A stretch of 64,000 bases of DNA from Lysobacter capsici. Its GTDB lineage: Bacteria > Pseudomonadota > Gammaproteobacteria > Xanthomonadales > Xanthomonadaceae. A model generated the notes under the pieces. The model made no database searches. It worked only from the letters and a program-made list of their open reading frames with translations, and was not told the DNA's origin. Location of the stretch: NCBI RefSeq assembly GCF_014779555.2, contig NZ_CP094357.1:5394001-5458000 (forward strand). Direction: 5' to 3'. Made by a program: the position numbers and the translations under genes. The first letter of the stretch is position 1, and every line of letters starts with the position of its first letter. Shown piece by piece: positions 3,900 to 31,269 of the stretch.

Positions 3900-6770
3900 C
3901 TACGAGATCGCCAGCGCGTCCGTATCCATCACCGTCTCGTGCACTTTCGCCGCGGTTTTCCGCCGACATTCGAGCAACAGCGGCGAGGCGAGGTCGCAAT
4001 CGGGATGCATGCGGTTGAGGGCATGAATCGCGCCGGCCAGGCCGGTCATCAGCCCGGGCGTGAACGCCTGGCGGGTGATGCCGCCGACGATGCCATGCTC
4101 CTCGATCGCCGAGACCACTTCGGCGGTCGCCTCATCGAAATCGGTGGCGGCGCCTTGCGGATCGAGCGCCGACGCGCGCACCAATAGTTCCCACAGCGAG
4201 AAATCGCCGTGACAAAGCGTGTGGGTGAAGCCCCATTGGCCGCGCGACGCCGCCACCGCGCGGCGCAGGTCGCGCAGATCGCGCGGATCGCCGTGGCGCG
4301 CATACAGATCGGCCGCGGCCAGGCCGATGCCGACCCCGCCGTTGCACCAGGTCGGAAAATTCACCGTGTCCTTCATGCGCACATCGCGCCAGTTGCCGGC
4401 CGCCGCGTCGAACAACGAATCCTGGAACGCGAACGCGCCCTCGGCGAGCGCATTCCAGCGCCGACGATCGTCTTCGCTGCCGGCACCGGTCCGGGCCAGA
4501 CGCGCCAGCGCCCAGCCGATGCCGTAGCCGCCGTGGGCGAAGCCGCCGATCGGATCGGCGATTCCCGCGGTCAGCCAATAGGTGCCTTGCTCGTCGACCC
4601 GCACCTTCGATTCCAGATGCGACGCCGCGCGCGCGGCGAGCGCCAGCCAACGCGGATCGGCGGTCGCCTCGGCGAGGCCCAGCAGCGGCGCGATGGCGCC
4701 GCCGCTGCCGTCGGTGATGTCCAGGCTGGGATCGTCGTCGAAGCCTTTTTGCTCCAGCGCCGCCGCGCACGCGCAGGCGTTGGCGAGCAAGTGTGGGCGT
4801 CCCAGCAGATCGTGCAACACCAGCCAGGCCCAGATGCGGCTGCCGTCGCCGGTGAACCCGCCGACCGTCGCCGGCGTCTGCGCCGCGACGAAGGTTTGCA
4901 AGGCGAGCAAGGCGCCCTCGAGCGCTTCGTCGACACCGGCGACCGGATCGGCGCGTCCGTGCGCGACTTCATGCCGATAGCCGGCCAAGGTCACCGCCAC
5001 GCCGCCGAGGCCGAAATACGCGTCGGCGCCGAGCGGCTGCACATGCCAGCCCTGGCTGCCGAAACTTTCCGGCGTGATCCAGGTGACCGAGCCGTCTTCG
5101 CCGCGCACGGCGAGCTGCAACAGACGCTGCATCGTTTCGGCGGCCAGCCGGCGGCGGCGTTCGTCGAGCCGGTCTCGATGCGGATGGCGAGCATAGTGCG
5201 AGCGACTGTCGCGTTGGTCCGGGCCATCCGCGCCGCTGTTGAGCTGGGTGACCACCAGCGAACTGCGAATCGTCATTTCCTCCAGTTCGATCCGCATGCC
5301 GCGCCAGTTGGCGAGCGTTCCGGCGATGCGTTCGGGCGACAGCGACAGCGCGAAGATCGGAATATCGCCGTAACGCAGCGCATCGATTTCGCCGGCGATG
5401 TCCTCCGGCGACGGCTGCGCGCCGCCACCGGCGCTGGAGAACAAGACACGGGCGCGCTCGATCGCCTTGGCTTCTTCGTGCAGCGACGCCGGATGCCAGA
5501 GCATGCGGCCGATTTCCACGTAGACCTGGGTGGTGCGGCGCACGTCGCGGGCGCGGCAGCCTTCGAACGCGGCGAGCAACGGCGCGAGCCGGCCGTCCGC
5601 GTCGAGTCGGCGCAGCCGATGCGAGGCGTCGAGAAAGGCCTCGGTGATCTCGTCCCAATAACGCGACACATCCGGGTTCGCACTGGGATGGTTCTGCGAC
5701 CTGTCCATGTCCGCTTCGACCAGTTCCACCCGCGCGGCGGTGGTGCCGTCGTCGGCGATGACCGGAACCTGCAACTGCGGCTGTTCGCCCGGCAAGGAAC
5801 CGGCGGCGGACAAGTCCGCGCGGCCGAAACCCACGCTGCGCGAACGGAACGGCACGATGCCGGTACGCAGCACCGAGTCCTGGATCAGGGTCTGGGCGAG
5901 GTCGTAGGCCTGGCCGTAGTTCGACGATGCGACCGGCCGCGCGGCCGCGAACAAGCTTTCGACATCCACGACCACCGGCACCGGGCCCGACGCGACCAGA
6001 TTCTCCAGATGGATGTCGGTGCCGCCGAGCAGGCGCAGCATCGCCAGCCAATGGCCGAGGCCGCGATAGAAGCGGCGCAGTTCGTCGTCGCCGTCGCAAT
6101 AGCGATGTTCGATGAAAGCCGCCCAGCCGTAGTCGCCGCGATCGAGCACCGCGGGCACGCGGATGCGCTGTTCCTCGTCGAACAACTGGGCAAGGAACGC
6201 ATCGAACACCGCATCGATGCGCAGCGAGCGCGGCTTGTACATCACCTGCCCGGCTTCGAAGGTGAGCCGGGCCACGGTCTGCCCGCCTTCGTGCAGGTCG
6301 CCCTGGCCGAGGCTGAGCTTGATCAGGCGACCGGGCGCGGCGCCCATGAACTCGGCCAGCGCGGCGCGATCGGCGATCAGGCGCGCCACCAGGGTTTCGA
6401 TCGCCGCGCATTGCTGGTCGAGCGCGCGCTGCAAGCGCTCGCGCAGCGGCGGATAGCGATGCTGCAGCAGCTCGGCGAATTGCGGGCTGAGCGCCTTGGC
6501 GACGAACTGGGCGAAACGGCCGGCCTCGTCTTCGGCGGTGAGCTCGCCGCCGAGCTTCGCCGCATGCAGTTCGAGCAGCAGCACGCGATTGAGCTTGAGC
6601 CGCGCGTTCTCGTACAAGGCCTGCGCGAGCGCCGCGCGGATCAGTTCCGATTCGCGCGCGTCGATGCCTGCGGACAAGGCCGCGAGCCGGGTATCGAAGG
6701 CGTCGCGCGCGGCGGCGGTGAAATGGTCGATGATCGGACCGAAGCCCTCGTGGATACGGCTTTCGGTCAT
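3900..6770 (-). CDS. lanM: Class II lanthipeptide synthetase LanM
   Basis: A 956-residue bifunctional enzyme that dehydrates Ser/Thr in a precursor peptide and joins them to Cys as thioether rings. The N-terminal dehydratase (about 1-560) shows the kinase-like motifs YKPRSLRID (179-186), GGTDIHLEN (249-257) and VVVDVES (266-272). The LanC-like cyclase (about 580-956) has GGFAHGGYGIGWA with His746. It also has the zinc ligands Cys809 (TWCNGG) and Cys853-His854 (TLCHGD), all present, so both activities should be intact. Length is normal for LanM. The gene lies 116 bases behind the precursor gene lanA on the same strand, with a hairpin between them that may reduce its expression relative to lanA. 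The ribosome site is weak. Confidence 0.95.
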   Translation of the reverse strand: MTESRIHEGFGPIIDHFTAAARDAFDTRLAALSAGIDARESELIRAALAQALYENARLKLNRVLLLELHAAKLGGELTAEDEAGRFAQFVAKALSPQFAELLQHRYPPLRERLQRALDQQCAAIETLVARLIADRAALAEFMGAAPGRLIKLSLGQGDLHEGGQTVARLTFEAGQVMYKPRSLRIDAVFDAFLAQLFDEEQRIRVPAVLDRGDYGWAAFIEHRYCDGDDELRRFYRGLGHWLAMLRLLGGTDIHLENLVASGPVPVVVDVESLFAAARPVASSNYGQAYDLAQTLIQDSVLRTGIVPFRSRSVGFGRADLSAAGSLPGEQPQLQVPVIADDGTTAARVELVEADMDRSQNHPSANPDVSRYWDEITEAFLDASHRLRRLDADGRLAPLLAAFEGCRARDVRRTTQVYVEIGRMLWHPASLHEEAKAIERARVLFSSAGGGAQPSPEDIAGEIDALRYGDIPIFALSLSPERIAGTLANWRGMRIELEEMTIRSSLVVTQLNSGADGPDQRDSRSHYARHPHRDRLDERRRRLAAETMQRLLQLAVRGEDGSVTWITPESFGSQGWHVQPLGADAYFGLGGVAVTLAGYRHEVAHGRADPVAGVDEALEGALLALQTFVAAQTPATVGGFTGDGSRIWAWLVLHDLLGRPHLLANACACAAALEQKGFDDDPSLDITDGSGGAIAPLLGLAEATADPRWLALAARAASHLESKVRVDEQGTYWLTAGIADPIGGFAHGGYGIGWALARLARTGAGSEDDRRRWNALAEGAFAFQDSLFDAAAGNWRDVRMKDTVNFPTWCNGGVGIGLAAADLYARHGDPRDLRDLRRAVAASRGQWGFTHTLCHGDFSLWELLVRASALDPQGAATDFDEATAEVVSAIEEHGIVGGITRQAFTPGLMTGLAGAIHALNRMHPDCDLASPLLLECRRKTAAKVHETVMDTDALAIS

Positions 6771-6842
6771 TGCGACACCGGAATGGGATTCGGGAGAGCG
6801 GGCCGTGAGCCCGCGATCGATATGGATTCAGTACCGAGACGA

Positions 6843-6866
6843 CGCGCAACCCGGCTGGGTTGCGCG
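6843..6866 (-). terminator. Hairpin between lanA and lanM (attenuator-like)
   Basis: A perfect 10-bp stem (core GCGCAACCC/GGGTTGCGC, loop of four) lies just after the lanA stop at 6887. No clear T-run follows on the minus strand. Partial terminators in this position are common in lanthipeptide operons and keep precursor levels above enzyme levels; that role here is inferred. Confidence 0.55.
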
Positions 6867-6886
6867 CCGACGACCTCGTGAATGCC

Positions 6887-7072
6887 TTACATGCAGCAGT
6901 AGCAGCGGCCGCTCGGGCAGGTCGATATCGAAGTGGAGTGCGTCAACGGGGTCTTCATCGCTTCGTCCATCGCGATCTCCCCTTCGATGTAGAGCGGTCC
7001 CGCCGGATTCTTGTAACCGCCGACGTTGGTGGCGCCGGTGAGCCAGGCGGAGACGATATCGTTGCTTTGCAT
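6887..7072 (-). CDS. lanA: Class II lanthipeptide precursor LanA
   Basis: A 61-residue precursor peptide, the substrate of the adjacent LanM. An acidic leader (about 1-40, including NPAGPLYIEGE and MDEAM) is followed by a core of about 21 residues. The core holds eight Ser/Thr (41, 44, 46, 47, 48, 50, 51, 54) and four Cys (52, 57, 59, 60), so up to four thioether rings are possible. The C-terminus is very Cys-rich (CPSGRCYCCM). The leader has no GG or GA just before the core, unlike most class II leaders; the only GG is at 18-19. The ribosome site AAGGAGGA is excellent. No LanT protease/transporter is in the window, so the removal site and exporter are unknown. The product name and activity cannot be given. 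Confidence 0.88.
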   Translation of the reverse strand: MQSNDIVSAWLTGATNVGGYKNPAGPLYIEGEIAMDEAMKTPLTHSTSISTCPSGRCYCCM

Positions 7073-7224
7073 TGCAGGTCCTCCTTGAGTACTGAATGTC
7101 GCCCGGCAGACGGCGGCTCCGTGTGGCGAAACTCCGTCGCACCGGACATCGATTTCGAGCCTTGCGGCCTCTCACCGCGAGCCGATTTTCATCGGCGACG
7201 TACCTCAAGAGATACCGCCTCGGC

Positions 7225-7254
7225 ACTCTAAACAGCCGTATCGACAACTGTCAA
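7225..7254 (-). promoter_or_regulatory. Candidate lanA promoter
   Basis: On the minus strand a consensus TTGACA (7249-7254) is followed after 18 bases by TAGAGT (7225-7230). The predicted start lies near 7218, leaving a leader of about 145 bases before lanA. The surrounding 7073-7419 region is gene-free and less GC-rich, as expected for a promoter. Confidence 0.5.
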
Positions 7255-7419: not shown

Positions 7420-8805
7420 TCAGGCCGAACCGCCGTCACGGATATAACGCCACGACAAACCCGCCGATAACAGCAGCCCGGTCAAGCAAACAACGCATAC
7501 GATCCGCAGGCCGGCATCGATGCCGTCCGCATCGGCCAGCAGCAGGCCGCACAAGGCCACCCCCAGCGCCGCGCCGGTCTGGCGCACCGCGTTGAGCACC
7601 GCGGCGGCCGTCCCCGACCAGGACCGGTCCACGCTGGCCAGGATCATCGTCGTGGTGGCCGGCATGGCCAGCCCCATGCCGGCGGGAACCGCGAGGAACG
7701 CGGGCAATATCCACGCGTAGCTGTCGCCATCGCCGAGCCGGCCCAGCCACGCGAAACCCGACGCGCACAGCATCAGGCCCGAGACGATCGTGACGCGAAA
7801 GCCGTGGCGCGCCAGCAAGCGGCCGCCGAGCAGATTGGCGGCGATGAAAGCCAAGGTAAGCGGCACATAGGCCAGGCCGGCCTGCAGCGGCGTGTAGCCG
7901 GCGAACTGCTGCAGGTACAGGCTCATGACGAAGATCAGGCCGTAGTAGGCCAGGCTGATCGCGATGGCGGACAACAACGCGATGCTGAAGTTGGGCAACC
8001 GGAACAACCCCAGCGGCAACATCGGTTGGGCGATCCGCGACTGCACGACCGCGAAAGCGACGGCGCATAGCGCGGCCAGACCGAACCCACCCAGGACCAC
8101 GGCATGATCGAACCCCAGGCGCGGCATCTCGATGATCGCGCCGATCAATCCACCCAGGCCCGCGATCGTCAGCGCCTGCCCGACAAGATCCAGACGCCTA
8201 TCCGCTTTACGCGGCGTTTCCGCGACCCGCCAGGCCAGCACGATGCCGAGTGCGCACAGCGGCAGGTTGACGAAGAAAATGCTGCGCCATCCGAGCGTTT
8301 GCAACAACACGCCGCCCAGCAGCAAACCCATCGCCGCCGCCGCGGCGCCCGAAGCGGTCCACACCGCCATGGCGCGGGCGCGCAAGCGCGGGTCGTGCGC
8401 GAAGGCGTGATTGAGCACGGCCAGCGAGGACGGCACCATCAAGGCGGCGAACAGCCCTTGACCGGCGCGCGCCGCCACCAGCTGGGTCACGCTCTGGGCG
8501 AGGCCGCACGCCGTTGATGTCAGCAGGAATCCGCTCAGGCCGATCAGGAAACTGCGCCTGGCGCCGAACCGATCGCTGATCGCGCCGGCCGACAGCAACA
8601 GCGAGGCGAACAGCAGCGTGTAGGCGTCCACCACCCACTGCAGGCCGGCGATGTCGGTCGCCAGATCGTTCGCCAGCGTCGGCAGCGCCAGGTTGACGAT
8701 GGTGATGTCGAGCTGGACCACCATGAAGCCGAAACAGGCGGCCAACTGCGTGACGCGCAGGAGACCATCGGTGGATCGAGGCGGCGCTGACGATGGGTCG
8801 GACAT
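7420..8805 (-). CDS. MFS drug-type exporter (DHA2/EmrB-like)
   Basis: A 461-residue inner-membrane proton antiporter. The N-terminal half shows the DHA2 pattern VQLDITIVNLALPTLA (about residues 27-42), GLQWVVDAYTLLFASLLLSAGAI and the MFS motif A-like DRFGARRSFLIG. Motif C-like segments follow, with about 14 hydrophobic helices in all. Start ATG 8805 (MSDPSSAPP) was chosen over an open extension to 8925. It lies 84 bases behind the DUF4442 gene, so it may be the last gene of an operon with it, and it ends 347 bases before lanA on the same strand. A link to lanthipeptide export is conceivable but weak, because class II peptides normally use LanT ABC exporters. Confidence 0.85.
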   Translation of the reverse strand: MSDPSSAPPRSTDGLLRVTQLAACFGFMVVQLDITIVNLALPTLANDLATDIAGLQWVVDAYTLLFASLLLSAGAISDRFGARRSFLIGLSGFLLTSTACGLAQSVTQLVAARAGQGLFAALMVPSSLAVLNHAFAHDPRLRARAMAVWTASGAAAAAMGLLLGGVLLQTLGWRSIFFVNLPLCALGIVLAWRVAETPRKADRRLDLVGQALTIAGLGGLIGAIIEMPRLGFDHAVVLGGFGLAALCAVAFAVVQSRIAQPMLPLGLFRLPNFSIALLSAIAISLAYYGLIFVMSLYLQQFAGYTPLQAGLAYVPLTLAFIAANLLGGRLLARHGFRVTIVSGLMLCASGFAWLGRLGDGDSYAWILPAFLAVPAGMGLAMPATTTMILASVDRSWSGTAAAVLNAVRQTGAALGVALCGLLLADADGIDAGLRIVCVVCLTGLLLSAGLSWRYIRDGGSA

Positions 8806-8888
8806 GGTGTTTCCGTCGACAGGGTGACAAGCGGTCGGTGGATTCGGCAATTGCAGATCCAATCGGTTGCGGGTGTTTTCGCCAGGCT

Positions 8889-9416
8889 TCACAACAAGCC
8901 ATCCGCGCGCGAGGACGAGCGCCACACCACATCCACGTGCCCGCGGATCGGCACCGTGCCGCTTGCATCGACCACCCGCATCGCGATGCGCGCCCTGCCC
9001 TCGGTCGAGCCCGACACGGCGACGATCTGCGCCGCGTCGATGGATGCATGCGCACGGATATCGCCGTGTAACGGTTTGCGGAAATCGGCCTGCACCGCCT
9101 TGACCACGAGCTTCGCGCCGCGCGCCAGATGCTGCGCGACCACCAGCGCGGCGGCGTATTCGCCGGCCAGGCTCGCCGCCATCGAGTGGATACCGCCGGC
9201 GCGATTGCGCAGATGGCGACGATTGCCGGCCAGAATCGAAACCCTGCCCGGTTCGATATCGACGATGCGGAAGCCGTGGGTGCGGAAATAACGGCTTTGC
9301 CGGCCCAGCGCCGCCGATACGATGCGGTAGCGCCAGCCGCGCGGAAGAAACCCGAGCCGGTCCAGCGAACCGGACAGATCGCTCATGATCCGCTCGTGCC
9401 AGATCAGGCTAGGCAT
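8889..9416 (-). CDS. DUF4442 hotdog-fold thioesterase-like protein
   Basis: A 175-residue protein of the DUF4442/PaaI-like hotdog group. The family pattern is seen as RNRAGGIHSMAASLAGEYAAAL (about residues 70-90), the central helix of the hotdog fold, followed by strands KLVVKAVQADFRKP and the closing RGHVDVVWR. Proteins of this kind are thought to hydrolyse or bind acyl-CoA thioesters. Its start overlaps the end of the upstream APH-type gene by eight bases, so the two are translationally coupled and probably act in one pathway. No signal peptide. The exact substrate is unknown. Confidence 0.75.
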   Translation of the reverse strand: MPSLIWHERIMSDLSGSLDRLGFLPRGWRYRIVSAALGRQSRYFRTHGFRIVDIEPGRVSILAGNRRHLRNRAGGIHSMAASLAGEYAAALVVAQHLARGAKLVVKAVQADFRKPLHGDIRAHASIDAAQIVAVSGSTEGRARIAMRVVDASGTVPIRGHVDVVWRSSSRADGLL

Positions 9417-10416: not shown

Positions 10417-11240
10417 GACCGTCCCGGACGCTTCCGACAACAGCGGATCGGTGGATCGCGACGGCTCCGGTTCGATGCGCGCGCGTTGTCCGATGAACTG
10501 CCGGTGGCGGATGGAAATTCCAGCGGTGCTTGTCCGATGACGAAACCCGGAGTCCGGATCGGCGAACAGTCGCGCGCGCGTGCCTGAGTCGACCCACGCC
10601 GCCGGACCGAGGCGATGCAACCCGCGCGGCGGTCCGCCGAGGTCGGGCGGCGGCGCAAGCTTCGACGGCCGCTCATACGCGGATGGCCCACCCGTATCGC
10701 CATCGTCCTTGTCGTTCGCCATGGCGCGCCCCTGTCCGACTGCGTCCGCCTTCGAGTGCTCCGCGCAAAACCGGCCGTAGAGCACAGTTCCGCTCGCTCC
10801 AAGCGCAGCGGCAAGCAGCGCCGCTGTCGCGCGAATCGATAGCACGCGGCGGGCCGCATAACCGATACCCGCGGCCACTTTCCCGGCCCCGGACGGGTTG
10901 GCGCGCGCACGCGATCGTGCATATCGGCCGGCGGTCTCAGTTGCGATGCGTGACCCGGTGCCGTGCCTGCGCAGGCGATCGCGAGGCCGCCGCGCGCCGC
11001 GGCCAGCGCGGCATCGCTCGCCGCAACTCAGGCTCCTACAGGCTTTCCGCCAACGCGCGCGCTGAAATCCCCGCTCGCATGCAGCGCCCCGACACAGCGC
11101 CATCGCCTCATGAATGCGCGGGCGCCTCGTCCATGCCGCGACAACATCGTTTCGCGCCATCGCCATGTTGCGCCGCGACAAATAAATCGGCCGAGAAAAC
11201 GCTTTCTGTCGAGTCCGTAGCAGCCCATGTCCTGTTTTAT
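10417..11240. other. Long gene-poor stretch before the first receptor operon
   Basis: More than 800 bases without a convincing gene. All frames on both strands are Arg/Pro-rich, as expected of shadows in GC-rich DNA. One minus-strand frame has a short hydrophobic run (about 10780-10850, RATAALLAAALGASGTVLYG) followed by a disordered-looking part and could hide a small membrane protein, but no start or ribosome site supports it. Confidence 0.4.
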
Positions 11241-11269
11241 TGACAGCGCTGTCAGTCCGCGTGTCAAAT
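11240..11269 (+). promoter_or_regulatory. Promoter with LacI-type operator (motif A, site 1)
   Basis: The perfect palindrome TGACAGCGCTGTCA (11241-11254) shares its left half with a consensus -35 TTGACA (11240-11245). A -10-like TCAAAT (11264-11269) follows after 18 bases. A protein on the palindrome would block RNA polymerase. The same 14-mer occurs at 26643-26656 and, with one change, at 58163-58176. It lies about 90 bases before the receptor start. Confidence 0.75.
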
Positions 11270-11341
11270 CGCCCCGCGGCACTTTCGGGGCATGCAGGAT
11301 GTACCTGCATATCCATCGCAAGATCCTGGGGAGGAGTTTCG

Positions 11342-14300
11342 ATGAAGCAAACGCGTGTTGCCCCGCGGCACACCATGTTGGCGTCCGCACTGTTGTTGGT
11401 GCTCGGCCAGCCGGTGTACGCACAGACGACCACAACGACGCCGGGCACCGCTGCCGACGAGCAGCCCAAGCCCGATGGCGAGCGCGATGCGAGGACGCTC
11501 GACACGGTCGTCGTCACCGGCATCAAGGGAAGCCTGACCTCGTCGATGAACCTCAAGCGCGACGCGCAGGGCGTCGTCGACGGCATCGCCGCCGAGGACA
11601 TCGGCAAGTTCCCCGACACCAACCTGGCCGAGGCGCTGCAGCGCATCAGCGGCGTGTCGATCGACCGCAGCAACGGCGAAGGCTCGCGCGTGACCGTGCG
11701 CGGCGTCGGCCCGGACTTCAACCTCGTGCTGCTCAACGGCCGGCAGATGCCGACCGCGACCGGCGGCCGCGCGTTCGAATTCAGCGACCTGGCGGCCGAA
11801 TCCATTTCGGCGGTCGAGGTGTTCAAGACCAGCCGCGCCGCCACGCCCACCGGCGGCATCGGCGCGACGATCAACATCAAGACCGCGCGGCCGCTGGACA
11901 ATCCCGGCCTGCACGCCAATGCCGGCATCAAGGGCATCTGGGACGGTTCCGACGACGATCTGCCGGGCGCCTACAAGGGCGATTCGGTGACGCCGGACGT
12001 GTCCGGCATTTTCAGCAACACTTCGGCCGATGGGCGCTTCGGCATCGCGCTGAGCGCGAATTACCAGAAGCGTGAATCCGGCTCGGCCTCGGCCTTCGTG
12101 GCCTCGGGCAACGGCTGGCGTCCATTCATCGACACCCCGCGGGACGACGGCGAAGGCGAGGGCTCGGCATTGCCGCTTCCGGGCCAACCCGGCTCGGAGA
12201 ACATCACCAACCGCCCCGGCCCGAACGACGTCTACTCGATGCCGCAAAGCCTGGGCTACAGCGTCAACTCGGTCAAACGCGAACGCATCAACAGCCAGCT
12301 CACCTTCCAGTGGGCACCGACCGACAACCTCACCACGACGCTCGATTACACCTACTCGCAGAACAAGATCGAGCAACTGCGCAACGACATGTCGGTGTGG
12401 TTGAACTTCACCCCGGGCACGAGTTCGTGGACCAAGGGTTCGGGTTCTTCGCCGATTTATTACGACGAGCGCTACAACGGCAATTCCGACTTCGCCAACG
12501 GCGCGAGCAAGACCGCGGTCAAGCGCGAGAACAAGTCGGTCGGCCTCAATGTCGATTGGCGCGTGGCCGATAACTTCAAGCTGAACTTCGACTATCACCG
12601 CTCCACGGCGGATTCCTCGCCCGACAGCCCGTACGGTTCCAGCAACACCCTGGCGAGCTCTGGCTTTTTCCGCGCTGGCAACATCATTGACTTCAGCCGC
12701 GATTTCCCGGTCCTGACCCTCCTGCTGCCGCCTGGAATGACCGCGATCGATCCGGCGGAGATGCTGGTGACCGGTTCGGTGTTCCGCAATGACCGCCAGC
12801 GCGCCAAAATCGAGCAGTTCCAGGCCAGTGGCGAGTTCGAGTTCGAAAACTATTCCAAGCTCAATTTTGGCGTCGCTTCGACCGACTACGAGAACCGCTC
12901 GGCCTTCACCAATGTGCAGCTCGATACCTGGGGTGGCGCGACCAGCGTCGACGACTACCCCGATTCGGTCTGGCAGTTGCGACACATGGGCGATTACTTC
13001 AACGGCGTCGGCGGAAGCCGCGACTCGCGCTTCACCGATTCGTTCTTCCTGTTCGATTTCGACCAGGTGCGTCAATTGGCCGAGAACGCGTGGGTCGCCG
13101 CCGGCAAGGGCACGCGCGAGGACTATCGCGCATCGTTCGACTACAGCGGCGCGGCCGTGCCGGGCAGCGCCGCCAACCGCTCGGTGGGCGACAGCCAGGT
13201 TCGGGAAAAGTCGAGCAGCTTCTATCTCCAATGGAGCGATACGTTCGACTGGAAACTGCCCGTGAACGTAGCCGCCGGGGTGCGCTACGAGCGCACCAAG
13301 GTTAAGGCATCGGCGCTACAGCCGGCGCCATCCGGCATCGATTGGGTCTCCGAGAACGAATTCATAATCCGCTACAACGGCTCGGAGTTCCGCAATCTCG
13401 ATGGCGACTACAAGTACTGGCTGCCCAGCCTCGACGTCTCGGTGGACCTGACCGAGAACATGAAACTACGCGCCAGCTACGGCGAGTCCATCGGCCGGCC
13501 GAACTGGAGCAACCTGAATCCGGCGTTAGGCGTCGGCGGGCAGGCGCGCTTCGACGGCGGCGGCGGCAGCGCGGGCGATCCTGCCCTCAAGCCGCTGGAA
13601 TCGCGCAACTTCGACTTGTCCTACGAGTGGTACTACGGCGAATCGAGTTATTTTTCGATCGGTTACTTCCGCAAGAAGATCGACAACTTCATCGCCGACG
13701 AGGTCAGCCGGCAGACGCCGTACCCCGACTTGCACACGCCAGCGAGTGGCGCGTACTGGAATCAGGCCATCAGCTCCGGTTGCGCCGCTACCGATCGACC
13801 GTGCATCCGCAATTACATTCTCAACACCTTCAACGGCCAACCCGGCGTGGTCAGGACAGGCACCAGCGCCAACGGCTCGCCTACCGGCACGATCAGCGGC
13901 TTGCCCGGCGATCCGGTGCTGACGTTCAATATCACCCACCCGGTCAACAACCGCGCCGATACGCTCGACGGCTGGGAGTTCAACCTGCAGCACGTGTTCG
14001 GCGACTCCGGCTTCGGCCTGGCGGCGAACTACACCATCGTCAATTCCGGTCTGACCTATAACGACGGGCGCCTGGGCACCCAGTTCGCGATGACCGGCCT
14101 GAGCGACTCGGCGAACCTCGTCGCGTTCTACGAAAAAGGCCCGTGGCAGGCGCGCGCGGCCTACAACTGGCGCGACAAGTTCCTGACCTCGCTCGGCGAC
14201 GGCAAGGGCGCCAATCCGATCTACGTGGAGGCTTACGGGCAGCTGGACATGAATGTCAGCTACGCGGTCAACGACAATCTGGTGCTGTCGCTGGAGGGCA

Positions 14301-14410
14301 TCAACATCACCGACGAGACCATGCGCACCCACGGGCGCAATACGCGCCAGTTGTACTCCTACGATCAGTCCGGGCCGCGCTACATGTTCGGGGTGCGCTA
14401 CAAGTTCTGA
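11342..14410 (+). CDS. TonB-dependent outer-membrane receptor (Xanthomonas/Caulobacter type)
   Basis: A 1022-residue outer-membrane receptor that imports a large substrate using TonB energy. It has a signal peptide (MKQTRVAPRH... cleaved near VYAQ). The TonB box/early plug is TLDTVVVTGIKGSL at about 51-64. The plug has the hallmark KFPDTNLAEALQRISGVSID and VTVRGVGPDFNLVLLNGRQ, and the 22-strand barrel ends in a terminal Phe (YMFGVRYKF). The plug wording matches the TonB-Xanth-Caul family linked to plant-glycan uptake. ATG 11342 follows a GGGGAGGAG ribosome site; the open frame to 11240 upstream is only the promoter. Downstream genes (SapC, cupin, halogenase-like, GH5, glucokinase) and the operator in front point to beta-glucan oligosaccharide uptake. 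Confidence 0.93.
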   Translation: MKQTRVAPRHTMLASALLLVLGQPVYAQTTTTTPGTAADEQPKPDGERDARTLDTVVVTGIKGSLTSSMNLKRDAQGVVDGIAAEDIGKFPDTNLAEALQRISGVSIDRSNGEGSRVTVRGVGPDFNLVLLNGRQMPTATGGRAFEFSDLAAESISAVEVFKTSRAATPTGGIGATINIKTARPLDNPGLHANAGIKGIWDGSDDDLPGAYKGDSVTPDVSGIFSNTSADGRFGIALSANYQKRESGSASAFVASGNGWRPFIDTPRDDGEGEGSALPLPGQPGSENITNRPGPNDVYSMPQSLGYSVNSVKRERINSQLTFQWAPTDNLTTTLDYTYSQNKIEQLRNDMSVWLNFTPGTSSWTKGSGSSPIYYDERYNGNSDFANGASKTAVKRENKSVGLNVDWRVADNFKLNFDYHRSTADSSPDSPYGSSNTLASSGFFRAGNIIDFSRDFPVLTLLLPPGMTAIDPAEMLVTGSVFRNDRQRAKIEQFQASGEFEFENYSKLNFGVASTDYENRSAFTNVQLDTWGGATSVDDYPDSVWQLRHMGDYFNGVGGSRDSRFTDSFFLFDFDQVRQLAENAWVAAGKGTREDYRASFDYSGAAVPGSAANRSVGDSQVREKSSSFYLQWSDTFDWKLPVNVAAGVRYERTKVKASALQPAPSGIDWVSENEFIIRYNGSEFRNLDGDYKYWLPSLDVSVDLTENMKLRASYGESIGRPNWSNLNPALGVGGQARFDGGGGSAGDPALKPLESRNFDLSYEWYYGESSYFSIGYFRKKIDNFIADEVSRQTPYPDLHTPASGAYWNQAISSGCAATDRPCIRNYILNTFNGQPGVVRTGTSANGSPTGTISGLPGDPVLTFNITHPVNNRADTLDGWEFNLQHVFGDSGFGLAANYTIVNSGLTYNDGRLGTQFAMTGLSDSANLVAFYEKGPWQARAAYNWRDKFLTSLGDGKGANPIYVEAYGQLDMNVSYAVNDNLVLSLEGINITDETMRTHGRNTRQLYSYDQSGPRYMFGVRYKF

Positions 14411-14687: not shown

Positions 14688-15434
14688 ATGCCCCAAGCCG
14701 TCCTGCTCAATAACATCGACCATCACGACCTGCGCGTGATCACCGCCCGCGGCGCGCGCTACGGCGACGACACGATGCTGGCGCCGACCTTCTTCCGCGA
14801 ATTCCGCGACTTGCAGGCGCACTATCCGGTGGTGTTCCAGAAGACCGCCGACGGCGGTTTCCAGCCGATGGCGCTGCTCGGCCTGCGCGCGGACGAAAAC
14901 CTGTTTCTCAGTGAGCCGCTCCTCGACGGCAATCGCCACGAGCGCCAACGCTGGGACGCGCATTACCTGCCGATCGCGGTCGAGCGTTTGCCGTTCCTGA
15001 TCGGCATCGCCGACGACGAACCGATGATCCATATCGACCTGGCTCACCCGCGCGTAGTCCGCGGCGATGCGGCCGAAGGCGAGCCGCTGTTCCTCGAGCA
15101 CGGCGGCACCACCGCGTTCCTGGAGCACATGGCTTCGATGCTGCGCACGCTGCACGACGGGCTGCGCGACAACGCGGGCTTCATCGCCGCGCTGCTGCGC
15201 CATCGTCTGCTGGAGCCGTTCGCGCTCGAGATCCGCTTGGTCGACCGATCCGAACTGCGCCTGAGCGGATTCCACACCATCGACGAACAGCGCCTGAGCG
15301 AGCTCGACGCCGCGGCGCTGCACGAGCTGTCGCAAACCGGTTATCTGCAAGCCGCGTACATGGCGCTGGCGTCGATGTCGCATTTGCGCGATCTGATCGA
15401 ACGAATGAACCGCCGCCATGCCGCCGATCGCTGA
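14688..15434 (+). CDS. SapC-like protein of carbohydrate-utilisation loci
   Basis: A 248-residue SapC family protein. Family features are the opening MPQAVLLNNIDHHDLRVI, HYPVVFQKTADGGFQPMALLGL (about 43-64), LPFLIGI and the closing YMALASMSHLRDLIERMNR. The name comes from an S-layer-linked gene, but the biochemical role is unknown. In Xanthomonadales and Caulobacterales it recurs between a TonB receptor and a halogenase-like gene. No signal peptide. Start ATG 14688 was preferred to the open frame back to 14253 because family sequence begins here. Its last 17 bases overlap the next gene, suggesting coupled translation. Confidence 0.85.
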   Translation: MPQAVLLNNIDHHDLRVITARGARYGDDTMLAPTFFREFRDLQAHYPVVFQKTADGGFQPMALLGLRADENLFLSEPLLDGNRHERQRWDAHYLPIAVERLPFLIGIADDEPMIHIDLAHPRVVRGDAAEGEPLFLEHGGTTAFLEHMASMLRTLHDGLRDNAGFIAALLRHRLLEPFALEIRLVDRSELRLSGFHTIDEQRLSELDAAALHELSQTGYLQAAYMALASMSHLRDLIERMNRRHAADR

Positions 15435-16443
15435 AGCCATCGAGGAACTGCAGGGCATCGACGCGGCGGCGCTGCCCGAGGCCTTGCTGCGGCCCGCCCG
15501 GCCGTACGTCTTGCGCGGTCTCGCCGCGCACTGGCCGATCGCCCGCGCCGGCACTACCTCGGCGCAGGAGGCGATCGCCTACCTCAAGCGGTTCGCGCGC
15601 GATACGCCGGTGACGGTCAGCGTGGCGCCGCCGCAGGCCGAAGGCCGGATCAGCTATCGCAAGGACCTGCTCGGTTTCGGCTTCACCCAGGAGAAGGCGA
15701 CGCTGCCGGTCGTGCTCGACGGCTTGCTGCAACAACTCAACGATCCGGCGGCGTCCACGATCTACGTCGGCTCGACCACAATCGATACCTGGCTGCCGGG
15801 TTTTCGCGAACACAACGACCTCGGCTTCGGCGCGGTGCAGCCGCTGGCGAGCATCTGGATCGGCAATCGCAGCCGCATCCCCGCCCATCAGGACGTCCCC
15901 GACAACATCGCCTGCGTGGTCGCCGGCCGACGCCGGGTGACGCTGTTTCCGCCCGACCAGTTGCAGAACCTGTACATCGGGCCGCTCGATCGCACCCCGG
16001 CCGGGCAAGCAGTCAGCCTGGTCGATTTCACCGCGCCGGATTACCGGCACGACCGCGAACGCTTTCCCCGATTCGCCGAGGCCTTGCGCCACGCGCTTAG
16101 CGCCGAACTCGGACCCGGCGACGCGGTGCTGATTCCGAGCATGTGGTGGCATCACATGCAGGCGCTGGAGCCGTTCAATGTGCTGGTCAACTACTGGTGG
16201 CGGCAATCGCCGAAGTGGATGGACACGCCGATGAACGCGTTGCTGCTCGCGATCATGAGCGTGCGCGATCTGCCGCCGGAGCAGCGCGAGATCTGGCGCG
16301 AGGTGTTCCGCCACTACGTCTTCGATGCCGACGATCAGACCGCGGCGCATATTCCCGAAGCGGTGCGCGGCCTGCTCGCGCCGATCGACGAACTTCGCGC
16401 GCGCGAACTGCGCGCGCGCCTGCTACACGGCCTGAACCGTTGA
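15418..16443 (+). CDS. JmjC/cupin_8 Fe(II)/2-oxoglutarate-type oxygenase
   Basis: A 341-residue cupin-like protein of the JmjC/FIH-like group, enzymes that usually hydroxylate a protein or small molecule with iron and 2-oxoglutarate. The iron-binding HxD is seen in RIPAHQDVPDN (about residues 155-165) and the distal His in IPSMWWHHMQAL (about 239-250). GRRRVTLFPPDQLQNLYIGPLD between them is a family signature. The C-terminal helical part (KWMDTPMNALLLAIMSVRDLP) also fits. It overlaps the SapC gene by 17 bases and ends eight bases before the halogenase-like gene. Its substrate in glycan-uptake loci is not known. Confidence 0.85.
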   Translation: MPPIAEAIEELQGIDAAALPEALLRPARPYVLRGLAAHWPIARAGTTSAQEAIAYLKRFARDTPVTVSVAPPQAEGRISYRKDLLGFGFTQEKATLPVVLDGLLQQLNDPAASTIYVGSTTIDTWLPGFREHNDLGFGAVQPLASIWIGNRSRIPAHQDVPDNIACVVAGRRRVTLFPPDQLQNLYIGPLDRTPAGQAVSLVDFTAPDYRHDRERFPRFAEALRHALSAELGPGDAVLIPSMWWHHMQALEPFNVLVNYWWRQSPKWMDTPMNALLLAIMSVRDLPPEQREIWREVFRHYVFDADDQTAAHIPEAVRGLLAPIDELRARELRARLLHGLNR

Positions 16444-16451
16444 GAGACGCC

Positions 16452-17990
16452 ATGCATAACGATGCCGAGCGCGGTGCGAGCGCAACCAGACCGATCAAGC
16501 GCGTGGTGATCGCCGGCGGCGGCACCGCGGGCTGGATGGCCGCGGCCGCGATTTCCAAGATCTTCGGCGCAACCTTGCAGATCAGCCTGATCGAGTCGGA
16601 GGAAATCGGCACCGTCGGCGTCGGCGAAGCCACCATCCCGACCCTGAGCACGTTCCACCGCTTGCTCGACATCGACGAGCGCGAGTTCATGGCCGCCACC
16701 CAGGGCACGATCAAGCTCGGCATCTCGTTCGAGAACTGGACCACCGAGCAGCACCGCTACATCCATTCCTTCGGCAGCACCGGCAAGGATCACTGGAGCG
16801 CCGGGTTCCAGCATTTCTGGCGCCGGGGCCGCGAACTCGGTCTGGCCGGCAGCTACGACGACTACTGCGTCGAGCTGCAGGCCGCGTTGCAGGGCAAGTT
16901 CGCGCATCTGAAGAACAATCGGATGAACTACGCCTACCATCTGGACGCCAGCTTGTACGCGCGGTTCCTGCGCACGATGAGCGAGGGCAACGGCTGCCGG
17001 CGCATCGAAGGCAAGATCGTCGAAGTGCTAACCGACGCGGATTCGGGCTACATCACCGCCTTGCGCCTGGAGCGCGGCGAAGTGATCGAAGGCGACCTGT
17101 TCATCGACTGCACCGGCTTCCGCGCGCTGTTGATCGACAAAACCCTCGGCGTGGGCTTCGAGGACTGGTCGCACTGGCTGCTCAACGACAGCGCCATCGC
17201 CGTGCAGACCACCTCGGTATGCGATCCGGTGCCGTACACCCGCGCGATCGCCGAGCAATGGGGCTGGCAGTGGCGGATCGCGCTGCAGCACCGCGTCGGC
17301 AACGGCATTGTCTATTCCAGCCGTCACGTCGGCGACGACGAAGCCAAGCAGGCGCTGCTGGACAGCGTCGACGGCGAGATCCTCAAGAACCCCTGGCCGG
17401 TACGGTTCCGTCCGGGTCGGCGCCTGCGGTGCTGGAGCCATAACTGCATCGCGCTCGGCCTGGCCGGAAGTTTCATCGAGCCGCTGGAATCGACCACCAT
17501 CCATCTGATCCAGCGCGGCATCACTCACCTGATCCGTTCGTTCCCGCAGGTCATCAGCCAGGCCGGCGTGGACGAATACAACACCCAGATGGCCGACGAG
17601 TTGCAGCACGTGCGCGACTTCGTGGTCCTGCACTACCACGCCACGCAGCGCCGCGATTCGCCGTATTGGGAATACGTGTCGAGCATGACCTTGCCCGATA
17701 CGCTGCGCCGTCGCATCGAATTGTTCCGCGAGACCGGCACGGTGTTTCATGTGCCCGGCGAGTTGTTCGCCGAGAACTCGTGGATCCAGGTGATGATGGG
17801 ACAAGGCATCACGCCCAAAACCCATCATCCGACCGCCGACACCATGAGCGAGGCCGATCTGCGTCGGTTCCTCGACGATATCCGCAACCACGTCGACACA
17901 ATCGTGCGCGCGCTGCCTTCGCATCAGGCCTACCTCAGCCAGTACTGCCCCAGCGCGCCGCGCGCGACGGTGCCCGCCCATGTCGCGTGA
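16452..17990 (+). CDS. Tryptophan-halogenase-family flavoprotein
   Basis: A 512-residue member of the flavin-dependent tryptophan halogenase family. The FAD-binding GGGTAGW is at 22-28 and VGVGEATIPTL at 55-65. Lys88 sits in GTIKLGISFENW at the position of the catalytic Lys of PrnA, and EPLESTTIHLI carries the matching Glu/Ser. The WxWxIP motif is WQWRIA, with the Pro replaced by Ala. Members next to TonB receptors and SapC are a distinct branch not shown to halogenate tryptophan, so the reaction is unknown. No signal peptide, so cytoplasmic. It overlaps the GH5 gene by 11 bases. Confidence 0.85.
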   Translation: MHNDAERGASATRPIKRVVIAGGGTAGWMAAAAISKIFGATLQISLIESEEIGTVGVGEATIPTLSTFHRLLDIDEREFMAATQGTIKLGISFENWTTEQHRYIHSFGSTGKDHWSAGFQHFWRRGRELGLAGSYDDYCVELQAALQGKFAHLKNNRMNYAYHLDASLYARFLRTMSEGNGCRRIEGKIVEVLTDADSGYITALRLERGEVIEGDLFIDCTGFRALLIDKTLGVGFEDWSHWLLNDSAIAVQTTSVCDPVPYTRAIAEQWGWQWRIALQHRVGNGIVYSSRHVGDDEAKQALLDSVDGEILKNPWPVRFRPGRRLRCWSHNCIALGLAGSFIEPLESTTIHLIQRGITHLIRSFPQVISQAGVDEYNTQMADELQHVRDFVVLHYHATQRRDSPYWEYVSSMTLPDTLRRRIELFRETGTVFHVPGELFAENSWIQVMMGQGITPKTHHPTADTMSEADLRRFLDDIRNHVDTIVRALPSHQAYLSQYCPSAPRATVPAHVA

Positions 17991-27522: not shown

Positions 27523-28548
27523 ATGGACAGCGTCAACGGCAGCTCCGGCACCGCAGGCACTTCGGGCACTCACGACAGCCAATCAGCCTCGCTCGGCGCG
27601 CAGTCCACGCCGACCCAGGCCGAGACCCAGGAACAGGAACTGCGCGATGCGCTGGCCGAAAACCCGCAGGCGGTGGCCGCGTTGTCGGCGCTGACCGCGA
27701 ACACCCACTACGCCCAGCTCAGCGTCGAACAGCAGGTGCAGGCGCTGACGGCGTTCAACGCCGCGCCCAACCTCGCCACCGCGACCTATCTGCAAGGCGT
27801 CGCCGAACAGACCTTGAACCCGCAGGCCACGCCCACCGCGCTGACGCCCGATGCCGGCACCCTGACCCTGGACGGGCAGACCTACAGCATTCAGAACGGC
27901 AACCTGATCGGCGCCGACGGCCAGGTCGCCGGCACGATCCGCAACGACGGCCAGGTGCAGCTCAACACCGAAACCACCACGCGCAGCGTCTACGACGACA
28001 TCAATACCCGCGTGCAGTTGCGCGAGACCAACGCGGCCCAGGAGTTGCAGGATCTGGTCAACCTGCACGCCGCCGATCCCAACGCGCGCCTGGACAACGT
28101 CAACATCAACCGCGAAATGGCCCGCCTGGCCACCGACGTGATTTCGCGCGCGCGCATGGAAGGCATGGACATGCGCGTGGTCAGCGATTTCCGCAGCGTC
28201 GAGGAGCAGAACGCGCTGTTCGCGCAAGGCCGCACCGCGCCGGGCCGGGTGGTGACCAACGCCACCGGCGGCAGCTCCTGGCATAACTACGGGCTGGCGG
28301 TGGACGTGGCCTTCAACAACGCCAACGGTCAGCCGAGCTGGCCGGAAAACGCCAACTGGGATCGCTACGGCGAGATCGCGGTGCAGCGCGGACTGGAATG
28401 GGGCGGCAACTGGCGCGGGATCAACGATCGTCCGCATATCGAATACCACCCCGGGCTCGGCGCCGGCGAGGCGCGCACCATGCTGCCGGCGTATCGCCAG
28501 GGCGGACTGGATCAGGTCTGGAACAACCTCGGGCTCGGCGGACGTTGA
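27523..28548 (+). CDS. M15-family peptidoglycan peptidase
   Basis: A 341-residue zinc peptidase of the M15 D-Ala-D-Ala/L-Ala-D-Glu type. The N-terminal 160 residues are low-complexity and Gln/Ala/Thr-rich, with a beta-like TLTLDGQTYSIQNGNLIGADG segment. The catalytic domain (about 165-330) has GGSSWHNYGLAVDVAF (His254, Asp261) and the third ligand in RPHIEYH (His305). The wording is closest to endolysin-type M15C enzymes. There is no signal peptide, so secretion would need another route. It starts after an AGGAG site and is followed 81 bases later by a lipoprotein gene that may be co-transcribed. It could act in cell-wall turnover or lysis of competitors. Confidence 0.85.
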   Translation: MDSVNGSSGTAGTSGTHDSQSASLGAQSTPTQAETQEQELRDALAENPQAVAALSALTANTHYAQLSVEQQVQALTAFNAAPNLATATYLQGVAEQTLNPQATPTALTPDAGTLTLDGQTYSIQNGNLIGADGQVAGTIRNDGQVQLNTETTTRSVYDDINTRVQLRETNAAQELQDLVNLHAADPNARLDNVNINREMARLATDVISRARMEGMDMRVVSDFRSVEEQNALFAQGRTAPGRVVTNATGGSSWHNYGLAVDVAFNNANGQPSWPENANWDRYGEIAVQRGLEWGGNWRGINDRPHIEYHPGLGAGEARTMLPAYRQGGLDQVWNNLGLGGR

Positions 28549-29949: not shown

Positions 29950-31269
29950 ATGAAGATCGATTCGCCACAATCGTCTTGTCCCCGCAACCACGTCGATATC
30001 GACCAGTTCTGGAAACTCGCCGACGATCTGCAAGGCAGGACCGTCGAGCACGCGCGGGACATGTTCGCCTTCGTCGAAACCGCCAGCCCGCAGCGCCTGT
30101 TCTCGCTGCTGGTGCAGTACCGGTATTTCACCGTCTATTACATCTCCGACATCGCCCTGCTGATCGCGCGCCTGCAACCGGGCCGGATGCGTAGTTTTCT
30201 CGCCGACATTCTGCTCGACGAACTCGGCGGCGGCGACCACACCCAGGCCCATCCGGAGTTGTACGACCGCTTTCTGGCCAGCCTCGGCATCGAACATTCC
30301 GCGCTCGACGGCATGGCGCTCGCCGACAATATCGCCTTGCTGGAAACCGCGCGGGCGAAACTGATCGCGCCGGAAAACACCACGGCTTACGGCATCGGCC
30401 TTCGCGGAATGGGCGGCGAGTGCGTATGCCAGATCTATCTGGCCCGCTTGTACGAGCATTTGATCCTGAATCCGTACATCCGCGAACGCACCGCGAGCAT
30501 CGACTGGACGTTCTGGGAGCTGCATATCGGCGAGCACGACATCGCGCACCGCGAGAACCTTCGCAAACTCATCAGCGACGAAGTCGCCGGCATGGACGGC
30601 GACAGCGTGGCGGCGCTCGAAGCGGGCTTCCGCGACAGCATGAGCGCGTGGTCGGCGTTCTGGCAGAACATCCACGACGATGCGACCAAGCCCTCGGGCC
30701 AGGAATCGAACCAGCGCGCGGCCGTCAGCGACGTGGTTCTGGGCCCGGTCGAAGGCGGTCGGAACGCGGACACCGACATCAAGCAGTTCCATCTCGCGAT
30801 CGGCGTGCACGACCTGCAGCAGGCGCGGCAGTTCTATTGCGATGTGCTGGGCGCCAAACAGGGACGCTCGACCAGGAACCTGATCGATCTGGATTTCTAC
30901 GGCCATCACCTGGTGATCCATCAAACGCCTCAAGGCGCGGACAACACCGACAACGCCTTCGGATCGGCGTTCTATGGCGAAACCGTACGCGTCCCGCACT
31001 TCGGCATGAACCTCAACTGGCGCGACTGGAGTTCGCTGGCGGATCGGATCAAGTCGAAGGACTACGCCTTCATCGACCCGCCGCACGTGCGCATGCGCGA
31101 CCTGCCCGGCGAACACGCGACGATGTTCCTCAACGACCCCAGCGGCAATTCGCTGGAGTTCAAGGCGTTCCGCAATCACGACGAGGTGTTCTCGGTGATC
31201 TTCTCGAACAGCACGCGCGACATCTTCGGGCTGGATTCGCTGGTGGAGAAGGCCGCCGCGGCGGCTTGA
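29950..31269 (+). CDS. Two-domain protein: haem-oxygenase-like (HDO) plus VOC dioxygenase-like
   Basis: A 439-residue fusion. Residues about 15-245 form an all-helical haem-oxygenase-like/PqqC-TenA-like domain. Candidate metal ligands typical of diiron oxidases of this fold are Glu91, His97 or His101, Glu157 and the cluster ELHIGEHDIAH (190-200). Residues about 278-407 form a VOC (glyoxalase/extradiol dioxygenase) domain of the COG3565 kind: FHLAIGVHDLQQARQFYCDV, VPHFGMNLNWRDW and NDPSGNSLEFKAF. His281, His350 and Glu403 make a complete 2-His-1-carboxylate iron site. Both halves thus look active. No signal peptide. A good terminator follows. The substrate is unknown; successive oxidation of one compound is the simplest idea. 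Confidence 0.8.
   Translation: MKIDSPQSSCPRNHVDIDQFWKLADDLQGRTVEHARDMFAFVETASPQRLFSLLVQYRYFTVYYISDIALLIARLQPGRMRSFLADILLDELGGGDHTQAHPELYDRFLASLGIEHSALDGMALADNIALLETARAKLIAPENTTAYGIGLRGMGGECVCQIYLARLYEHLILNPYIRERTASIDWTFWELHIGEHDIAHRENLRKLISDEVAGMDGDSVAALEAGFRDSMSAWSAFWQNIHDDATKPSGQESNQRAAVSDVVLGPVEGGRNADTDIKQFHLAIGVHDLQQARQFYCDVLGAKQGRSTRNLIDLDFYGHHLVIHQTPQGADNTDNAFGSAFYGETVRVPHFGMNLNWRDWSSLADRIKSKDYAFIDPPHVRMRDLPGEHATMFLNDPSGNSLEFKAFRNHDEVFSVIFSNSTRDIFGLDSLVEKAAAAA

Follow-up and report, generated by a model that had tools for sequence, protein, structure and literature searches.

Precursor peptides of the Pfam family DUF6229 (PF19740) have already been identified as lanthipeptide precursors (PMC9576775, 2022; PMC11451712, a 2024 preprint). 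The DUF6229 peptide rhodanocin, a LanII peptide of Dyella sp. 333MFSha, has four dehydrations and three rings; LahT150 failed to cut it despite a possible double-Gly motif, AspN freed the core, and the available text of the paper does not name a native protease (PMC9576775). For Lysobacter, 72 class II clusters have been described, whose 27 unique precursors group by similarity into six families and include 21 of DUF6229 (PMC11451712), and one Lysobacter DUF6229 precursor was deposited with the lysobactin cluster (PMC9576775). Here we analyze a lanA-lanM locus of Lysobacter capsici, at positions 3,900 to 7,254 of a 64,000-nucleotide stretch referred to below as the window (assembly GCF_014779555.2, contig NZ_CP094357.1, positions 5,394,001 to 5,458,000, forward strand). 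The locus is likely a class II lanthipeptide operon of just two genes, with a precursor of the DUF6229 family whose leader, judging from sequence comparisons, would be cut by a protease encoded outside the cluster that is most likely not a C39/LanT enzyme. Like the published Lysobacter precursors, it combines the same genus, the same precursor family and a LanM partner, and it shares with rhodanocin a DUF6229 precursor and a class II LanM. The two genes and the two parts of the precursor are:

3900-6770, minus strand: lanM, class II lanthipeptide synthetase of 956 amino acids, DUF4135 dehydratase and LanC-like cyclase

6887-7072, minus strand: lanA, precursor of 61 amino acids, DUF6229 (PF19740) by profile match

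6944-7072, minus strand: putative leader, residues 1-43, boundary placed from conservation

6890-6943, minus strand: putative core, residues 44-61, THSTSISTCPSGRCYCCM, placed from conservation

By its domains and catalytic residues, LanM is a class II lanthipeptide synthetase, predicted to install (methyl)lanthionines. Its two Pfam domains (PF13575, E 1.3e-90; PF05147, E 7e-34) are both above the curated cut-offs, and TIGR03897 scores it at 526.6 bits against a cut-off of 304. The only solved structures related to it at E <=0.001 are LicM2 (6st5, 3.3e-47) and CylM (5dzt, 2e-27). All 12 catalytic and zinc residues of CylM, with roles taken from PMC4550811 and positions mapped through the alignment, are identical in LanM, both in the kinase/eliminase part (D158, H160, K179, D252, H254, N257, D269, R408, T414) and among the zinc ligands (C809, C853, H854). 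The cyclase stretch aligns weakly with CylM (3.0 bits), and the zinc motifs align also in LicM2, in a second stretch (31.3 bits). An earlier note, made from the letters of the window, had credited lanM with complete dehydratase and cyclase motifs, and the profile scores and mapped residues bear this out.

The precursor gene is separated from lanM by 116 bp on the same strand. LanA matches PF19740 over residues 2-60 of 61 (E 1.7e-16; 60.3 bits, gathering cut-off 25) and ends in CPSGRCYCCM, with Cys at positions 52, 57, 59 and 60; coordinates and profile match thus confirm the 61-residue LanA with four Cys in nine residues that had been proposed next to lanM. The core is of the type THSTS[IV]STCP[SNT]GRC[YIV]CC[MI], represented by 10 distinct sequences from two Luteimonas and from 11 (the host among them) of the 20 genomes of the host's genus group, which includes Lysobacter sp. 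Root690 (G010, locus L045) and Root76 (G011, locus L046). In LanA six Ser/Thr of the core precede the four Cys, and all ten residues are invariant across the 10 sequences. Across 12 orthologous genes with this core type, which encode 10 distinct peptides, pN/pS averages 0.42 in residues 1-42 and 0.20 in residues 43-61; the core is better conserved than the leader and is under purifying selection. Short strings from the core type (GRCYCCM, GRCYCCI, CPSGRCYCC and CPNGRCYCC) were not found in the paper texts searched, a weak negative as supplements were not covered, and the core may well be among the 21 published Lysobacter DUF6229 precursors.

Genes for DUF6229 peptides are present in 16 of the 20 genus genomes and in at least 33 of the 395 genomes of the host's family, from at least 5 of 54 genera; the family-wide counts are lower bounds, with at most 15 candidates scored per genome. 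At all 34 DUF6229 places in the genus genomes, a LanM on the same strand follows within 3 kb, so the pairing of lanA and lanM is not a product of chance, and a LanM is likewise just downstream in 19 of 19 related DUF6229 loci of a wider contig collection. Of the 43 strong LanM places of the genus, 31 have a DUF6229 gene as neighbor and 12 lack one. The host genome (6.24 Mb, one contig) has three DUF6229 genes and, besides weaker ones, four strong DUF4135 places, three of which are paired with DUF6229. The LanM at the fourth (L016:9527-12253, ~4.14 Mb) is 28.6% identical to that of the window, with no DUF6229 gene nearby. While 18 of the 19 loci in the wider collection come from Lysobacter, Luteimonas, Dyella, Rhodanobacter or Rhodanobacteraceae, the other is from an actinomycete, Streptomyces sp. 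NBC_01481 (L061), where a DUF6229 precursor (PF19740, 78.9 bits) and a LanM occur, possibly through horizontal transfer.

Residues invariant in the DUF6229 alignment (32 rows out of 51 distinct peptides) are W, NPAG, L, the G of YIEG, and CC near the end, and all 32 aligned members have a tail of 3-5 Cys that includes CC. A CC end is not a strict rule of the family, as one peptide outside the alignment (L070) ends in VCR, and one more Cys comes after CC in L038, L039/L051 and L049. The leader of LanA has no Gly followed by Gly, Ala or Ser (G[GAS]) within 22 residues after NPAG, which agrees with the claim that no GG/GA stands ahead of the core; its GG at residues 18-19 is mid-leader, and the first Gly of the pair is not conserved. 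Such a motif is absent from the same interval in 28 of 50 distinct DUF6229 peptides and is confined to the conserved FIGG/YIGG/EGA stretch in 16, leaving 44 of 50 without G[GAS] at the putative leader end. A Cys-dense tail and an absent GG, which the earlier note took for peculiarities of this locus, are thus usual in DUF6229. The locus is real, conserved and probably functional, and it is ordinary for its family, which has been published before.

Compared with a canonical double-Gly class II leader and its LanT, LanA has no GG/GA/GS leader end, and no C39-ABC transporter is encoded in the window. LanA and LanM without a local LanT imply that both the cut site and the protease depart from the textbook case. 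There is no C39 gene in the 64-kb window at all, the host's two PF03412 matches being at 5.28 Mb and 0.04 Mb. The proposal that the window has neither a LanT nor a protease gene therefore stands for LanT and was slightly too broad for proteases: the Pfam scan, covering 26 of the window's open reading frames, includes a VanY/M15-type D-Ala-D-Ala carboxypeptidase (27523-28548), a wall enzyme by its family. The suggested search for a LanT elsewhere in the genome found one PCAT ~120 kb away from the locus, with C39, ABC_membrane and ABC_tran in one open frame. The protein beside it scores 192 bits with TIGR04187 (ATP-grasp ribosomal peptide maturase), below the cut-off of 350, and for this reason the PCAT probably belongs to a graspetide locus:

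L117:8119-12513, ~5.278-5.283 Mb of the host contig: PCAT and ATP-grasp maturase-like protein, probable graspetide locus

The second host C39 protein (247 amino acids) is FapD-like, although its 212 bits fall short of that family's cut-off (330).

We surveyed C39 proteins in the 33 DUF6229 genomes of the host's family (16 from the genus and 17 further), all of which are 99-100% complete. In four of them (G038, G133, G342, G369) nothing matches C39 at E <=1e-3, the only match in G304 is under the cut-off, in a frame of 1195 amino acids, and seven have matches solely in frames of <600 amino acids (G004, G011, G017, G019, G088, G114, G331). A PCAT-sized C39 protein over the cut-off (frame >=690 amino acids) is thus missing from 12 of the 33. 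G004, G011, G017 and G019 carry the same core as the window LanA yet have no PCAT-sized C39 frame, the short C39 protein of G011 having 236 amino acids. Taken with the failure of LahT150 on rhodanocin, the 12 genomes make it unlikely that a C39 enzyme does the cutting in general, and the product would probably be freed by a non-C39 protease encoded outside the cluster. The earlier note had left a choice between an unusual cut site or protease and an enzyme encoded elsewhere; the latter is favored, with the qualification that the enzyme is probably not a LanT, given the four same-core relatives.

Some results weigh against a non-C39 protease. At least one C39 frame of >=690 amino acids is present in 21 of the 33 genomes, including the host, and in these a C39 enzyme could still have a role in leader removal; frame length is a proxy for size, the full domain make-up having been read for the host alone. 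G[GAS] is found near the putative leader end in six of the 50 distinct peptides (L036, L053, L054, L070, L071, L073), e.g., ALGG in L054, which rules out a missing GG as a strict family rule and makes a C39 cut conceivable in those six. Our analysis also pinpointed no specific protease or exporter for LanA.

One rival reading is that the host's single PCAT cuts and exports LanA in trans. The PCAT has all three domains in one open frame, and about one third of >20,000 lanthipeptide clusters in one study have no protease, with proteases outside the cluster known (PMC10885120). However, its neighbor is the ATP-grasp maturase-like protein, a PCAT-sized C39 frame is missing in 4 of the 11 genus genomes that carry the core, the LanA leader lacks the GG/GA/GS end, and LahT150 failed on rhodanocin (PMC9576775); we therefore consider this route quite improbable. 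A standalone FapD-like C39 protease that trims the leader after export would fit the C39 matches in 20 of 20 genus genomes and the FapD-like second gene of the host, but C39 is also present in three genus genomes without LanM (G009, G013, G018), a C39 match at E <=1e-3 is lacking in 4 of the 17 further DUF6229 genomes, and FapD is annotated as maturing amyloid fibres. This makes a FapD-like enzyme very unlikely.

There may also be no dedicated cut, with general exported or cytosolic peptidases trimming the peptide to mixed ends, or with a peptide that works with its leader on. Apart from the precursor, LanM and frames antisense to it, no gene family is shared by more than 3 of 22 loci, be it for tailoring, proteolysis or export (a greedy choice of reading frames took antisense frames at some LanM loci), and other systems offer precedents: the extracellular protease AprE finishes mersacidin after MrsT (PMC8581636), removing the last six leader residues (PMC8581636, PMC9127955), and AplP-type peptidases encoded outside the cluster can cut and trim class III and IV leaders (PMC10885120). 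Conservation drops sharply past the AAL/EAM stretch of the DUF6229 alignment, however, which suggests a real boundary between leader and core, and the absence of a dedicated cut appears unlikely. Even less can be said for a decayed or silent locus without a product. Literature searches found no report of a native product, and lanthipeptides are stated in the available text of PMC10380237 as not isolated from Lysobacter; pN/pS is nevertheless low in core and leader alike, the catalytic residues of LanM are intact, and three L. capsici LanM genes, which may or may not include the ortholog of the window lanM, are up 1.7- to 5.2-fold in one transcriptome (PMC10380237). Decay or silence is thus extremely unlikely.

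In the preferred reading, LanM would bind the conserved parts of the leader (W10, NPAG, YIEG and a few acidic residues that follow YIEG), phosphorylate and eliminate Ser/Thr of the core, and add the four tail Cys to form up to four thioether rings, in an order and number that are predicted. The leader would then be removed by a protease not encoded in the cluster, most likely not C39/LanT, probably at about residues 39-43, and the product would leave by a presumptive export route. By analogy with rhodanocin, its role is probably antimicrobial. The multiple cross-links that the earlier note anticipated in the product are a sensible prediction.

The predicted rings would differ from those of rhodanocin (Thr6-Cys11, Cys8-Ser14, Thr12-Cys23; PMC9576775), as LanA has four Cys in its last ten residues behind six invariant Ser/Thr. 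The spacing of ring partners in rhodanocin is not found in LanA, where no Cys of 52, 57, 59 and 60 precedes an invariant Ser/Thr. Position 54 of the core type is Ser, Thr or Asn, and the three sequences with Asn have no Ser/Thr after any Cys. With all core Ser/Thr before all Cys, any two rings in the Asn54 members would have to nest or cross and could not sit next to each other, should four rings form; this is a matter of logic applied to residue order rather than of measured structure.

LanA also shares a class II LanM with the mersacidin-type lantibiotics, and unlike LanA, mersacidin retains a GA site together with a dedicated LanT, MrsT. The W...NPAG part of the leader may resemble mersacidin leaders. 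NCBIfam models for mersacidin and lichenicidin match none of the 32 DUF6229 members at E <=10, although the program's filters drop weak matches; the only NCBIfam models that appear are linaridin_rel, for four members (0.0072 at best), and choice_anch_E, for one (0.077). A TIGR03898 search of 299 genomes of the phylum returned zero matches, also with none for any control.

Signals for expression lie on both sides of lanA:

7080-7086, minus strand: ribosome-binding site AAGGAGG of lanA, from sequence

7225-7254, minus strand: sigma-70-like site TTGACA-18-TAGAGT upstream of lanA, weak, with 0.5 expected by chance in the region

6840-6869, minus strand: 13-bp stem-loop between the lanA stop and lanM, covarying, no U tract, from folding and covariation

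6798-6814, minus strand: second stem-loop, 7 bp, GC-rich, before lanM, from folding

The 119 nt from the lanA stop fold at -53.3 kcal/mol vs -40.4 for shuffles (z -3.72), with none of 200 shuffles as good. An alignment of 8 orthologs in 7 distinct rows shows pairing in 98.9% of the stem's cells, and 3 of the 13 pairs are changed on both sides, as compared to 0-1 in slid versions and a shuffle mean of 1.0 (8 of 500 shuffles reach 3). This count leaves out G004, G005 and G015, which are more distant and whose region did not align, and G017, where the stem is further downstream; all four have strong stems of their own after lanA. In the 90 nt after the stop, fold z is < -2 for 6 of 10 genes of this core type and for 26 of 51 distinct DUF6229 genes; with the other 25 not below -2, the hairpin is not a trait of all members. 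Only the second gene, next to lanM, is below -2 in the tandem pairs L102 and L104 (-6.34 and -2.94 vs -0.24 and +0.88), while both genes are in a third pair (L050). We rejected an intrinsic terminator after lanA, as the stem-loop has no U tract and a terminator scan made no call, and the stem-loop is accordingly read as processing, stabilising or attenuating: it may stabilise lanA mRNA or damp lanM.

The genes around the locus do not appear to be cluster members. Besides lanM, ten neighbors served as queries; the major facilitator superfamily (MFS) transporter (7420-8925) and seven of the other nine are closely matched only in Lysobacter sp. Root690, and in the remaining 18 loci of the wider collection the queries gave no more than two matches, both weak and both to MFS (29-30% identity; L046, L051). 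In a comparison of 23 loci, the top 26 families are all inside lanM or the precursor; the flanks available for L056 and L057 are shorter than those of the other loci. Elsewhere in the window, the plus strand encodes a tryptophan-halogenase family protein (16143-17990; PF04820, 2.3e-184), with a Cupin_8 protein (15418-16443) next to it, and, at 29950-31269, a single protein in which an iron-containing redox enzyme domain (PF14518) precedes a glyoxalase domain (PF00903). A long open reading frame (11240-14410) looks like a candidate TonB-dependent receptor gene.

DUF6229 lanthipeptides are frequent in Lysobacter; one product of the family has been characterized, and the available text of PMC9576775 and PMC11451712 names no leader protease. 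We tentatively suggest that they may be a class II group that abandoned the C39/LanT route, in which a lone lanA-lanM pair relies on a host protease to free the product and, in this core type, ring donors precede acceptors so that rings would be only nested or crossing. The genome counts point away from C39 enzymes as the first place to look for the leader protease, and relatives with the same core but without a PCAT make the protease question directly testable.

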